Shown here: positions 20,963-46,416 of the stretch, one piece after another
Position numbering within the stretch: position 1 is the stretch's first letter
How the letters are laid out: each line of letters begins with the position of its first letter
Origin: Luzula sylvatica
Lineage: Eukaryota; Streptophyta; Magnoliopsida; Poales; Juncaceae
DNA: 64,000 nt
Reading direction: 5' to 3'
Assembly: GCA_946800325.1 (NCBI GenBank)
Contig: OX326957.1
Coordinates: forward strand, 22,934,554-22,998,553
Notes under the pieces: model-generated
What the model was told of the DNA's origin: nothing
The model's database searches: none
Seen by the model: only the letters and a program-made list of their open reading frames with translations
Position numbers and translations under genes: made by a program

Positions 20963-21130
20963 AAATGCTAAATAGAATCCACAAAAAGAATCCACAAATC
21001 GAATCCAAGGACCAAAAAAATAATACATGTACAGGCGGAGGGGCCTGTTTATAATATGATCAAAATTTACAGACGGAGGGACCTTTTTCTAAATAAGCAA
21101 CAATAGTCCTCTCCCACGACAGACCTTCCT
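20963..21130. repeat. Left terminal inverted repeat of the MULE
   Basis: AATAGAATCCACAAAAAGAA and CAAATCGAATCCAAGG are a small internal iteration of GAATCCA. The GGCGGAGGGGCC-type word occurs twice (about 21036 and 21073). The paired right terminus is at 46340-46416. Confidence 0.7.
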
Positions 21131-21796
21131 CTCTCTTCCTCTCTCCTCTCTGAGGCGATTTACGCGATTTAGGCGAGACGACCAGATCTGAGGCGAACCT
21201 TGCTCCGTCGCGATCCTTCTTCTGTATAGGTCTCCGACGATTCACGATCCTTCTCCAGATCTGAGACTTCTTTTCTCTCGGCGATGGCAAACAAGAAGAG
21301 ATGGCGATGGCGATGGCGACAAGAAGATTGAATCGTCTCTTCTTCTGGCCATAACGACAAGGAGATCGATGCGCCCCTTCATCTGGCGACGAAACCAAAC
21401 CTTCGTTAGTGGACATAGAGACGAGGAAGCCATAGTCGATGAGGCGAGAAAACTCTAATCGATTCATGACAGATGATTTGTTGTTTTCTTCTTCTCATGA
21501 TAAGGTAACTCTTGCTTTTGTAAATTTGCAAATTCAACTGTAAATTTCAATTTCAATTGTTGAATTTGCAAATTTTGCTTCGGTTTTCGAATCCGAAATG
21601 GAATTCTCTTCCAATTAGCCCGAATTATGTACTAATTACTTTCCCAATTAGCCCCAATTCAGTCTCAATCATGCAATTCAACTCAATAATGTTTCAATTG
21701 CACATTTAGACCTCAATTGAGTTCTAGCTAAGTTCTGATTGTGCAAATGAGCATCAATCAAGGCTCGATTTATATATATTTGACCTAATTTTTTTT

Positions 21797-22058
21797 TTAG
21801 ATAAATGCAGATGCACTTGCATTGGTGAGGCGAGATATACCGATTGGGATCTGGCCGGTGAATCCCGAGCTGGATAAGTTCAGATAAGTGAGATTTGGAA
21901 AACGTTCGAATCCGGTTTGTGGAAAAGGAATTTTATCGAACAGGTTGTAGGCGAGGCTGAGATTCTCGAGCGAGTTGAGGTTAAAGAGAGATGGTTCAAG
22001 ATTGAGTGAGGTCACTCCACCGGTGAACCGATCACATTTGACTCCTTGTCCCTAGTCG
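21797..22058 (-). pseudogene. Captured leucine-rich-repeat receptor fragment
   Basis: The minus-strand translation begins GVKCDRFTGGVTSLNL, the junction of the LRR N-terminal cap and the first repeat of plant receptor-like proteins. It continues SLFNLNSLENLSLAYNLFDK, then GFERFPNLTYLNLSSSGFTG and QIPIGISRLTN, matching the usual first LRRs (Cf/RLP type). After ISRLTN the similarity stops and a stop codon follows. The frame is open for roughly 85 codons. MULEs often pick up host gene pieces (Pack-MULEs), and this sits in the terminal region of the element, antisense to its genes. An antisense RNA effect on the parent gene is conceivable but unproven. Confidence 0.85.
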
Positions 22059-22589
22059 CGCCCTCCTTCTCCCTATCGAACAGGTTAAAGAGAGATGTAT
22101 TGTAATTGTGATATTGAACTTTAAATGTGACTGTAATTGTTATATTTTTCAGTTTTATTAAAATCTTGATATTAATTATTTTTTATCGCAGACGTGATGA
22201 TTTTTGTAATATTTATTTGAATTACTTCTAATTCTTTTCCTGTGACGTGAGTGATACTTTTTAGAATTAATGTAGTAAATTCAGGCAATTAACCATTATT
22301 ATATATCAAAAAACTACAATTGGTATAGTTTGTATTATTCTACTGAATATATCTGAATATTATAAAAAGAAAATTTGAATACTTGTACTAGTTATTGTAA
22401 AATATTCTCCAAAAATATTAGTTTAACATACTAAGAGAAAATAACTATTGAATACTAAGAGAGGAAATATTTCATCCAAAAAAAGTTCTCAATATATATG
22501 ATTGAATTTAACAAAAAATGTTCTCAAAAAAAGTTCTCAATACATACTGAGAGGAAATATTTCATCCTAAAATATCTGAATATTATAAA

Positions 22590-22925
22590 AAGTTCTCAAA
22601 ATGATTGAATTTAGCAATATATATGATTTAATTTACCAAAATATATAATTGAATTCAGCAAAATATATGATGGAATTTAGGAAAATATATGATTGAATTT
22701 TTTAAAATATATGATTGAATATAGCAAAATGTATGATTGATTTTTGCGAAATACATTATTGAATTTATTTAAATATACGATTGAATCTAGCAAGATACAC
22801 GATCGAATATACAAAATATATGATTGAATATAACAAAAATAGCAAAATATATGAATAATTGTAAAAAGATATATGATTTAATGTAGATAAATATACGATT
22901 GTAATCTAGCAAAATATATTTTTGG
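22590..22925 (+). repeat. 22-nt motif array 1 (forward)
   Basis: About 12-15 degenerate copies of core ATATATGATTGAATTTAGCA, just upstream of the leader of gene A. Confidence 0.85.
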
Positions 22926-43305: not shown

Positions 43306-45222
43306 TATATACTAATTCAAGGGGATTTGCAGCCCCCTGGTGCAGCCACGTCACCAGGGGCCTTTTCGTAAAAAAAAATATTTTTTTTACATTTTGGTCC
43401 TTTTTTATTTACAAATTGGTCCTTTTTTCGAAAAAAAATTACATTTTGGTCCTTTTTTTTACATTTTGGTCCTTTATATTTGCATTTTGGCCCTTCGAAG
43501 TTTTGAAATTTACATTTTAGTCCAAGGTCCCCAAATTGGTCCTATTTTTTAAAAAAAATTATATTTTGGTCCTTTTTTCACATTTTGGTCCTTTTTTATT
43601 TACAAATTGATCCTTTTTTCGAAAAATAATTACATTTTGGTCCTTTTTATTTACATTTTGGTCCTTTATATTTGCATTTTGGCCCTTCGAAGTTTTGAAA
43701 TTTACATTTTGGTCCTTTTTTATTTACAAATTGGTCCTTTTTTCGACAAAAAATTACATTTTGGTCCTTTTTTTTTTCATTTTTGTCCTTTATATTTGCA
43801 TTTTGGTCCTTCGAAGTTTTGAAATTTACATTTTAGTCCAGGGGCCTCAAATTGGTCCAATTTTTTAAAAAAAATTATATTTTGGTCCTTTATATTTGCA
43901 TTTTGGTCCTTCGAAGTTTTAAAATTTACATTTTGGTCCTTTATTATTTTTCTTGCCTGGTGCAGTCACGTCACCAGGAGCCTATTTGTAAAAAAAAATA
44001 TTTTTTTTACATTTTGGTCCTTTTTTTTCATTTTGGTCCTTTATATTTGCATTTTGGCCCTTCAAAGTTTTGAAATTTACATTTTAGTCCAGGGGCCTCA
44101 AATTGGTCCTATTTTTAAAAAAAAATTATATTTTGGTCCTTTTTCCACATTTTGGTCCTTTATATTTGCATTTTGGTCCTTCGAAGTTTTAAAATTTACA
44201 TTTTGGTCCTTTATTATTTTTCTTGAAAAACTAAAATAAAATTATAATAAGTTGAACAATATTAATAAAAGAACATCTTGCAAATATTTAAAAATAAAAT
44301 ATCACAAAACTATTAAAAAATACATAAAAAGAAAACTAAAATAAAAAATAGATGTTTAAATAGATATTTTCTATGAATATATTTGCAAGATGTTTATTTA
44401 TTATCATTTAATGTTAGTTTTTTTATGAATAAAGAATGTAATATTAAAATTATATAAACAAAAATATGTAATAATTAAAAAAATTTTAAATCACTACGTG
44501 TTAAGAAGTGTTTATGAATTTTCTTAAAATTAATAAAAAATAACAAAAATAAGTTTTAATTATTACATATGAGATTTGGAGGGTATTTTGGGAAAAAAAA
44601 AATTAATATCATCCATAAGGAGTATTTTAAAATAAAAGTTTGGTAAAGAGTTATTTTTTTTTGGAGTTTACGAAAAGATAGAGAATTTTTTATAATATCC
44701 AAAAAAAATTAGGGGGTTAAAAATATACCAAATCATGGATGTGCGAATAATCATGACATAATTTAAATTAAAGGTTCGAACGAAACGGTTAGCGATGACA
44801 TCGTCAAACTTTGTTGTTGGCTGACCACACAAAGGACGAAAAATATTTTTGCTAAATATGTAGCAAAATTAAGGATTTGTGAAATTAAAAACACTCTTTT
44901 TTTCAGCAATGTTTTCTGAACTATTATGTTCTTAATAAATTTCATGACGACTCATTCGTTCTTTTTCCTTATTTTACTTATGAAGTATAAAATATAGATA
45001 ATTTTTTTAGCAATAACCGTTTGAATTATTCAAGAAATCCGGCTCTTAAAATATTCAAACGATTTTTGCTACAAAATTTCACTCGCACACAACACACTAA
45101 ATTACACATATAATAATAATTACAAAAAGAAAGTTACATACACAAAATGAACAACAATTTTTTTCAACTACATTACTTATAAATCCGAACAGCCCCGCGC
45201 AATTGCGCGGGGGTAATGCTAG
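43306..45222 (+). mobile_element. Helitron 2 copy 1, non-autonomous
   Basis: The 3' end has palindrome CCCCGCGCAATTGCGCGGGG (45193-45212), then GTAATG and CTAG (45219-45222) before T. The 5' end (TATACTAATTCAAGGGGATT) matches the minus-strand copy at 52416-54206 except that the first nine bases (TCTATACTA) are missing, replaced by the CTAG end of Helitron 1. The simplest reading is that Helitron 1 inserted between A and T near the 5' tip of this element. No gene inside. Confidence 0.8.
43336..44225 (+). repeat. Tandem array of ACATTTTGGTCCTTT units in Helitron 2
   Basis: Dozens of short units (TTTACATTTTGGTCCTTTTT, ATTTGCATTTTGGCCCTTCG) with higher-order repetition. The 5'-proximal hairpin CCTGGTGCAGCCACGTCACC is repeated inside at about 43959. 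The long open frames here are repeat artefacts. Confidence 0.9.
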
Positions 45223-45660
45223 TATATATATAATCCTACGTAGGAAAGAGAGGAGCCATGACGTGATGCTTTCATTTCAGAATACTTCAATATTTAACTT
45301 TAACTTTATATGCACACACAAAAAATAGTGACAAATGTTCACAAAACCTCTGATGTGGCATGCTATAGTTCCTTCCAACTAATAATATACTATCATGAAA
45401 ATTTGTGTAAATGTTCGTAGAAATTAAGAGTGGAGCAAAGAGATTGGATATATCATACTAAATAGAGAGAGAGAGAGGAAGCACGTGCTGTGAACAAAGA
45501 AAATAACACTTCCTCTTCCTCTGCGAACTTAGCCATGCCGTAATGGCATTCAACAACTTAAAAACTCACTTCAAATGCTTATACTCGGATTGAATAATCT
45601 ATTCTTTGTTTTTCCTTGTTTTTTGTTCTTAATACTGTAGATAGATCATCTTTCTCTTCA
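45223..45660. other. Remainder of the nested insertion, no gene recognised
   Basis: AT-rich sequence with a perfect CCTACGTAGG palindrome at 45236 and a short GA tract at about 45465. No coding region recognised. Confidence 0.5.
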
Positions 45661-45784
45661 TAAAAAAAAAAAAAAAATTAGGTGACTCGGATCCGATTTT
45701 ATCGGGGCAAAATCGGCTCGGTGGCCACCGAGTCCGAGAATATCGGCCGAGTTTTTTTTATCTCGGCCGATATTACGAACCATG

Positions 45785-46416
45785 GTATATACCTCAATTC
45801 GATATATATACATCAATTCAGCTAGAAAATCGATCAAAAATCGTTGAATTTCAATATAAATACGTCGATTCAGCAAGAAAATAGATCAAAAATCGTTGCT
45901 AAAATAGATCAAAAATCGTTTACAGGACATTCTTGCCTCCGGCGAGATTTTGAGAAGCGACGAAGAGCTCGGATTAGCGGCGCTTTCGTAATACCTTGCG
46001 CGTTCGTAAAATTAGCGGTTTGGGTTGCTCGGTTTGGGTGTTGGTTGCTCGGTTTCGTGGTAATACCTTGCGCGTTATCGTCGTCGTAATATCTTGCGCG
46101 TTCATAGCCGGTCGTCATCGTCGTCGTCGCTAATCGTCGATGAGGGACTATTTTGCAAATCGCGCGTAGCGGGGATTCGATTTGCGGATTCGCCGGCTTC
46201 AACAGATTTGAGCTTAGTCACCGGCTTCAACAGAAGGCCGTCGCCGCTCGCGAGAAGCTAACGAAGTTAACGAAGAGAAGGCCGTCGCCGCTCGTGAGGA
46301 AGAGTGGAGATTGGAGCGCTAGAAGCAAAAATGAAATTGGATAATTACGAAAATAACCCTCCGCCTGGTGGATTCGATTTCTGGATTCGAATTGTGGATT
46401 CTCCTTAGCAGCCCTG
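45785..46416 (-). repeat. Right terminal region of the giant MULE
   Basis: Higher GC than its surroundings, with iterated TAATACCTTGCGCGTT (45991, 46061) and AGAAGGCCGTCGCCGCTCG (46230, 46275). It mirrors the leader-like left terminus. The inverted repeat itself is 46340-46416 (GGATTCGATTTCTGGATTCG, TGTGGATTCTCCTTAGCA). The open frames on both strands are not recognisable proteins; a captured gene fragment is possible. Confidence 0.6.

Follow-up and report, generated by a model that had tools for sequence, protein, structure and literature searches.

Arrays of a 22-nt motif and three DUF1985-like genes in a decayed Jittery/MuTAnT-like Mutator-like element of Luzula sylvatica: a possible counterpart of the VANC anti-silencing system

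The 64-kb stretch of Luzula sylvatica DNA analysed here (the window) contains, at 20966-46410, a decayed copy of a Mutator-like element (MULE) which, judged from its sequence, is Jittery/MuTAnT-like in its domains and ends and VANDAL/VANC-like in its layout. It carries a transposase gene (gene A) and three DUF1985-like paralogues (genes B, C and D), all four on the + strand, together with many units of one 22-nt motif. We hypothesize that this Jittery/MuTAnT-type element encoded a sequence-specific system against its own silencing, comparable in action to VANC of Arabidopsis, and we give this reading a probability of about 0.52. One or more of the DUF1985-like products (that of gene C alone, or those of genes B and D, whose C48 domains are degenerate) would bind the 12-bp core of the motif, CAAAATATAYGA, occupy its clusters whichever way these are oriented, and remove or block DNA methylation across the element; the lowered methylation would permit expression of the transposase, and the many clustered sites would restrict the effect to the family's own copies. 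We infer the binding, the demethylation and the identity of the acting gene (B, C or D) alike by analogy.

The motif is abundant in the element. The 20-mer proposed in the original prediction has 60 matches with at most three mismatches, all within 22494-39558, against 0.07 expected, and a refined 22-nt matrix finds 116 units in the element and six weak ones in the remaining window (20 Markov-1 sequences of element length gave a mean of 2.75 and a maximum of 6). Twelve same-strand clusters hold at least two units and ten hold at least four, in agreement with the ten arrays that had been predicted. In the ten larger arrays the spacing of neighbouring units is 22 nt in 58 of 96 steps and 21 nt in a further 18. 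The arrays, with one leader that adjoins them, are as follows.

22490-22931, + strand: array upstream of gene A, with 14 units, of which the first stands apart from the others
23380-23740, - strand: array within the gene A 5' leader; 15 units
24799-24863, + strand: short array in intron 1 of gene A; 2 units
26627-27156, + strand: arrays of the A-B spacer; three clusters totalling 12 units, each unit having C as its tenth core base
29387-29582, + strand: array in a non-coding gap of gene B, taken as an intron; 9 units
31034-31360, - strand: array between genes B and C; 11 units
34178-34731, + strand: largest array, between genes C and D; 23 units
34763-35139, + strand: gene D 5' leader, which duplicates that of gene A (at 22984-23369 and 23763-23809)
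35659-35821, + strand: array of 6 units in an inferred 5' intron, ahead of the main exons of gene D
37824-37932, - strand: array in the gene D intron between exons 36892-37812 and 37943-38029; 5 units
39187-39556, + strand: array 3' of gene D; 15 units

Exons make up 49% of the interval 22.4-39.6 kb, and 115 of the 116 units lie outside the exon models, the lone exonic unit (score 10.2) being in gene B. When the 12 arrays were placed at random, none of 20000 placements avoided the exons.

The conserved part of the unit is columns 1-12, the core CAAAATATAYGA. With units picked by equal weighting of the columns, column conservation was correlated between arrays (Spearman 0.470, null maximum 0.143; 112 units, nine arrays). 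The correlation was also found when units were picked on their tail (columns 13-22) and judged on the core (columns 1-12; 0.374, null maximum 0.124, nine arrays), and when they were picked on the core and judged on the tail (0.386, null maximum 0.285, ten arrays); tail-picked units match the core at 0.78, and core-picked units match the tail at 0.69. Conservation falls on matching columns from one array to another, which suggests a candidate binding site over a drifting minisatellite. The opposing explanation, that the arrays are a neutral AT-rich minisatellite which originated in this lineage of MULEs and multiplied through slippage and internal duplications, with no binding protein, is in our view unlikely, though it deserves serious weight. 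It would fit the AT-richness of the 22-nt units and their local higher-order periods (43, 65 and 174 among others), the avoidance of exons, which is expected without selection, and the duplication of the gene A leader at gene D, where similarity runs into the arrays (with the arrays masked, 72% over 393 bp and 87% over 47 bp). It accounts poorly for column conservation common to separate arrays, and for the near equality of unit likeness between arrays (16.39 of 22 for matrix-picked units) and within them (16.82 of 22). The array flanks, the leader excepted, also lack long similarity: once the arrays are masked, the only long similarities in 22.4-40.1 kb are those of the A and D leaders and of the B and C coding exons (67%, 403 bp), the remaining ones spanning 25 to 60 bp, and since the masked flanks share only short repeats, the motif unit occupies several unrelated contexts. 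Core words are, moreover, in excess outside the arrays, AAAATATA occurring 23 times in the 5145 bases of non-array non-coding DNA (mean 4.8 and maximum 10 in 200 nulls).

A different origin for the arrays would lie in their opposite orientations, which could yield double-stranded RNA and make the arrays sources or targets of small interfering RNAs, so that they would mark silencing and not anti-silencing; we consider this improbable. In its favour, the segments 22645-22838 and 23561-23754 form an inverted pair (77% complementary, 722 nt apart). The array cytosines, moreover, are mostly in CHH context, at 155.1 of 179.6 per kb (CG 17.6, CHG 6.9) as against 162.1 of 222.2 per kb in the other non-coding DNA of the element (CG 26.5, CHG 33.6), and CHH sites are methylated by RNA-directed DNA methylation (RdDM) and CMT2. 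Left unexplained would be the conservation of the 12-bp core across arrays of both orientations, and the intron arrays that have no nearby inverted partner. A role in silencing is nevertheless compatible with the anti-silencing hypothesis, because RdDM and VANC act on overlapping regions (PMC10398659).

The arrays fall into two types. Core position 10 is C in every one of the 12 A-B spacer units, and in 6 of the 104 units elsewhere, of which 95 have T (Fisher p 3.8e-12, as a guide only, units within an array not being independent). Units that hold a CG are likewise concentrated in the spacer (10 of 12, versus 11 of 104 elsewhere), and the T-type arrays at 22601 and 31025 have 10 CG sites each, counting both strands. 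The motif of VANC21 has C-type and T-type variants (PMC5735166), which the spacer units and the remaining units recall.

The four genes, with their exon models, are listed below.

23797-26401, + strand: gene A, Jittery/FAR1-type transposase; exons 23797-24701, 24892-25268, 25342-25564 and 25647-25749, then a shifted frame to 26401
27456-30860, + strand: gene B, DUF1985-like with C48; nonsense codon near 29813
31768-33984, + strand: gene C, DUF1985/PMD-like, 484 aa, open, no C48; exons 31768-31879, 32115-32812, 32894-33251, 33391-33492, 33561-33644 and 33884-33984
near 35351-35395 and 35475-35594, + strand: likely 5' exons of gene D
36100-38930, + strand: gene D, DUF1985-like with C48; exons 36100-36794, 36892-37812, 37943-38029, 38321-38719 and 38802-38930

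The domains of a transposase and of three paralogues, two of them with C48, were found where the original prediction had placed such genes, but genes A, B and D are broken: gene A carries a premature stop near 24983 and shifts frame near 25750, and gene D, like gene B, has a nonsense codon (near 38543). Gene C, which had been put forward as intact at 481 aa, is open through the 484 codons of a six-exon model. This openness is no distinguishing mark, because the lesion rate of A, B and D (four lesions in 2330 codons, 753 + 834 + 743) predicts 0.83 lesions in the 485 codons of C, so that, if decay were even, gene C would have escaped damage with a probability of about 0.43. We therefore rejected intactness as functional evidence, an undamaged gene C being unremarkable at that rate.

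In the domain exons, gene C is 45% identical to gene B and 32% to gene D. The C48 domain is clear in gene B (Pfam, E 1.7e-16) and weak in gene D, for which Pfam gives a match below its cutoff (E 0.04) on the piece before the stop and none on the piece after it; the gene D domain does match SENP1, at 1.7e-5. When aligned with SENP1, the C48 domain of gene B (30234-30629) keeps His, Gln and Cys and has Asn in place of the catalytic Asp, and that of gene D (38321-38719) keeps His and Asp and has Ser in place of the catalytic Cys, with the qualification that two SENP1 chains in the gene D alignment themselves have Ser or Ala at that place. The full catalytic set of His, Asp, Gln and Cys is thus incomplete in both. 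Because B and D have each lost a different catalytic residue, their C48 domains may have been kept for binding and not for cleavage, or may be decaying.

Several points weigh against an anti-silencing system of this kind. One copy of the element was studied, and the evidence is that of its sequence. The absence of arrays from exons is also expected if exons cannot tolerate arrays; the picking of units by a matrix is partly circular, which the equal-weight and half-unit controls lessen and do not remove; and 8-mers unrelated to the motif are enriched in the same non-coding DNA as the core words, with GTTTAGAG ranking first. The DUF1985 matches of the exon pieces all lie below the curated Pfam cutoff of 35.1 bits, at 28.3 bits (E 1.9e-6) for B, 18.8 bits (1.7e-3) for C and 23.8 bits (4.8e-5) for D, and over full-length C the score is just 17.7 bits (E 0.0037) and the PMD match, which is below cutoff in the exon pieces of B, C and D, is lost. 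The assignment of the three genes to DUF1985, which rests on the agreement of three paralogues with individual matches under the cutoff, is hence inconclusive. In Pfam, DUF287 was not found in full-length C up to E 10, or in the searched pieces of B and D up to E 1. Protein-database searches gave no relative of gene C among 7117 candidates (E up to 0.001) and none of the B/C/D domain alignment among 2647 candidates (E up to 0.01). An AlphaFold model of the C domain, built from three sequences, was poor, with a mean predicted local distance difference test score (pLDDT) of 53, and is silent on DNA binding. A search of the PDB for a VANC or DUF1985 structure gave nothing below E 0.16, and searches of Rfam and of viral contigs gave no match.

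The closest functional parallel is with the VANC systems. VANC21 binds YAGTATTAY, tandem repeats of which lie upstream of VANA21 and in introns of the VANB21 and VANC21 genes; VANC6 uses a different motif, and the VANC proteins are drawn with DUF1985 and DUF287 (PMC5735166). The Luzula element has in common with VANDAL21/VANC21 and VANDAL6/VANC6 the presence of DUF1985-like genes in a MULE and an element-specific motif repeated in tandem in introns and upstream regions (PMC5735166). It differs from them in its FAR1 transposase, its clear terminal inverted repeats (TIRs), its core CAAAATATAYGA, its three DUF1985-like genes and the failure to find DUF287 at the Pfam thresholds given above. Like VANC, gene C encodes a DUF1985-like domain and no C48; in the matter of DUF287 it departs from VANC. 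An analogous but distinct pair of protein and motif had been proposed for this element; the anatomy is indeed as in VANC systems and the motif is a different one, while the analogy is incomplete in gene C, in which DUF287 was not found. Published VANC motifs were considered as the source of the arrays and rejected, neither being enriched: YAGTATTAY occurs twice in the window and not once in the element (4.0 expected), and AGTTGTMC is absent from the window (2.0 expected), which bears out the earlier remark that the core is unlike VANC targets.

Membership of VANDAL was rejected on the FAR1 domain and the clear TIRs. The VANDAL transposase is given SWIM and CCHC and no FAR1 in a table row of PMC6446971, a paper according to which some members of the VANDAL clade do have TIRs. 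VANC genes with a transduplicated Ulp1 domain exist in the KIU (Kaonashi) VANDALs (review, PMC13317346). These share with genes B and D the fusion of a DUF1985-like gene to C48 (PMC13317346); they are, however, described as non-TIR elements, whereas here there are TIRs, a FAR1-type transposase and two C48 domains that each lack one catalytic residue.

The transposase instead has the Jittery-like layout of a FAR1 N-terminus, a MULE core and a SWIM C-terminus. In separate pieces of gene A, Pfam finds FAR1 at 1.7e-15, MULE at 3.5e-15 and SWIM at 4.3e-5, and exon 1 has no match to DBD_Tnp_Mut up to E 1. The Jittery transposase has FAR1 where MURA has DBD_Tnp_Mut (PMC9569675), and the layout is also described in PMC6446971, with FAR1 occurring as well in TvMULE, in half of a Hop sub-group and in some Phytophthora elements. 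AutoMuTAnT of Medicago is a Jittery-like element of 4873 bp with a single open reading frame, found in (TA)n, with the TIR mask GGGGTTTGCTAGAACA (PMC4486113). In common with MuTAnT and AutoMuTAnT, the Luzula element has FAR1, MULE and SWIM domains and (TA)n on both sides (PMC4486113; PMC9569675), and its right end, which reads inward as GGGCTGCTAA, resembles the mask GGGGTTTGCTAGAACA and the TIR start GGGGTTTGCTAG (PMC4486113), a likeness judged by eye only. Unlike AutoMuTAnT, it measures about 19.8 kb once nested DNA is excluded, and it has three extra genes and the motif arrays. Jittery-like MULEs of melon and grapevine have a ULP-like coding sequence downstream of the transposase, treated as transduplicated host sequence (PMC2528002). 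The Luzula element shares that arrangement, and differs in that motif arrays and an anti-silencing role are not reported in the accessible part of that paper (PMC2528002). A literature search, whose scope did not extend to a 2022 eudicot VANC study, found no published report of motif arrays in Jittery-like MULEs. As far as these searches show, ULP1-carrying Jittery-like MULEs are already known and the new part is the occurrence of motif arrays in such an element.

The ends of the element are as follows.

20834-20921: (TA)n, (TA)44, followed at 20921-20963 by (AG)n, (AG)21; outside the left TIR
20966-21007, + strand: left TIR, with three GAATCCA repeats
46369-46410, - strand: right TIR; the element may reach about 46415, ...AGCAGCCC
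46417-46477: (TA)n, (TA)30, outside the right TIR

The inverted ends that had been predicted are real, 35 of the 42 bases of the TIRs matching with a score of 54, against at most 29 for other + strand 150-bp windows taken every 100 bases; a 20-base probe from the left end, allowing up to three mismatches, hit the two ends only. The target duplication is unreadable because (TA)n and (AG)n microsatellites adjoin the ends, the (AG)n intervening at the left.

The position of the arrays relative to these ends bears on a further possibility, that the motif is a transposition or transcription site recognised either by a host factor or by the FAR1 domain of the transposase. FAR1 is a DNA-binding domain, the subterminal repeats of other DNA transposons offer a protein-binding parallel, and a transcriptional role is plausible in that the A and D leaders (22984-23369 and 34763-35108) each have a large array on their upstream side. 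The ends, however, carry a different repeated word, GAATCCA; the arrays are internal, some 1.5 kb separating the first unit from the left end and some 1.2 kb the last unit from the right end when the nested insertion is not counted; and units also occur in introns and 3' regions. We therefore hold such a role to be distinctly unlikely, and retain the binding of the motif by a DUF1985-like product as the preferred hypothesis.

The top matches of transposase A among those listed are Rhynchospora proteins, with 45, 42 and 40% identity (first E 2.8e-136), and the named plant relatives among the listed matches are mostly FAR1-RELATED SEQUENCE-like proteins; PF03101 is present in 118 of the 120 relatives listed, of 511. 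Transposase A groups with four Rhynchospora proteins, with support of 99, in a FastTree tree (120 of the 511 hits) and a quick IQ-TREE tree (41 chosen), trees which contained no Jittery sequence and in which the query branch is long and drew a long-branch warning. Rhynchospora belongs to the Cyperaceae, order Poales. With a long query branch and transposons able to switch hosts, we treat this affinity as a lead only.

Part of the right arm is probably made up of nested insertions.

about 40107-45783, unstranded: probable nested insertion, bounded by short inverted ends (ATGGTTC..AATATCGG) and flanked on either side by GTATATACC

GACTCGG repeats lie near the left end of this insertion. Within it, 43303-45224 recurs inverted at 52414-54203 with 82.5% identity; both copies carry a ATTTTGGTCC minisatellite, and the copy at 43303-45224 terminates near CCCCGCGCAATTGCGCGGGGGTAATGCTAGT. 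That region resembles the 3' hairpin and CTAG end of a Helitron, and we take the stretch at about 43303-45224 to be Helitron-like. Just inside the left end of the MULE, a fragment coding for leucine-rich repeats (21797-22051, - strand; LRR_4, 3.1e-6) is possibly a captured piece of a host gene. Around the MULE lie three DUF247 genes, at 16549-18054 (E 3.8e-105), 50419-51906 (E 3.5e-94) and 59142-60574, the last split over two frames (E 5.4e-14 and 8.6e-89); DUF247 genes are linked to self-incompatibility in grasses.

It is interesting to consider what such an element would mean for the MULEs as a whole. We suggest tentatively, and at somewhat less than even odds, that a VANC-type module is present here on a Jittery/FAR1-type, TIR-bearing, TA-flanked MULE, probably of a sedge-like monocot, and so is not confined to VANDAL transposases, to TIR-less elements or to eudicots. 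On this view the two array types (C and T) and the three paralogues may represent two or more protein-motif pairs that are diverging within a single element. In VANDALs, VANC-related genes and degenerated TIRs are commonly found together (PMC10398659), and the occurrence of candidate VANC-related genes beside clear TIRs in the Luzula element bears on that association. For annotation, AT-rich tandem repeats in the introns and spacers of transposons are worth viewing as candidate protein-binding sites. If our hypothesis is correct, another protein-motif pair, whose motif differs from both published ones, would be available for studying how these proteins choose their DNA, and DUF1985-type sequence-specific anti-silencing would be a module carried by at least two distant MULE lineages.

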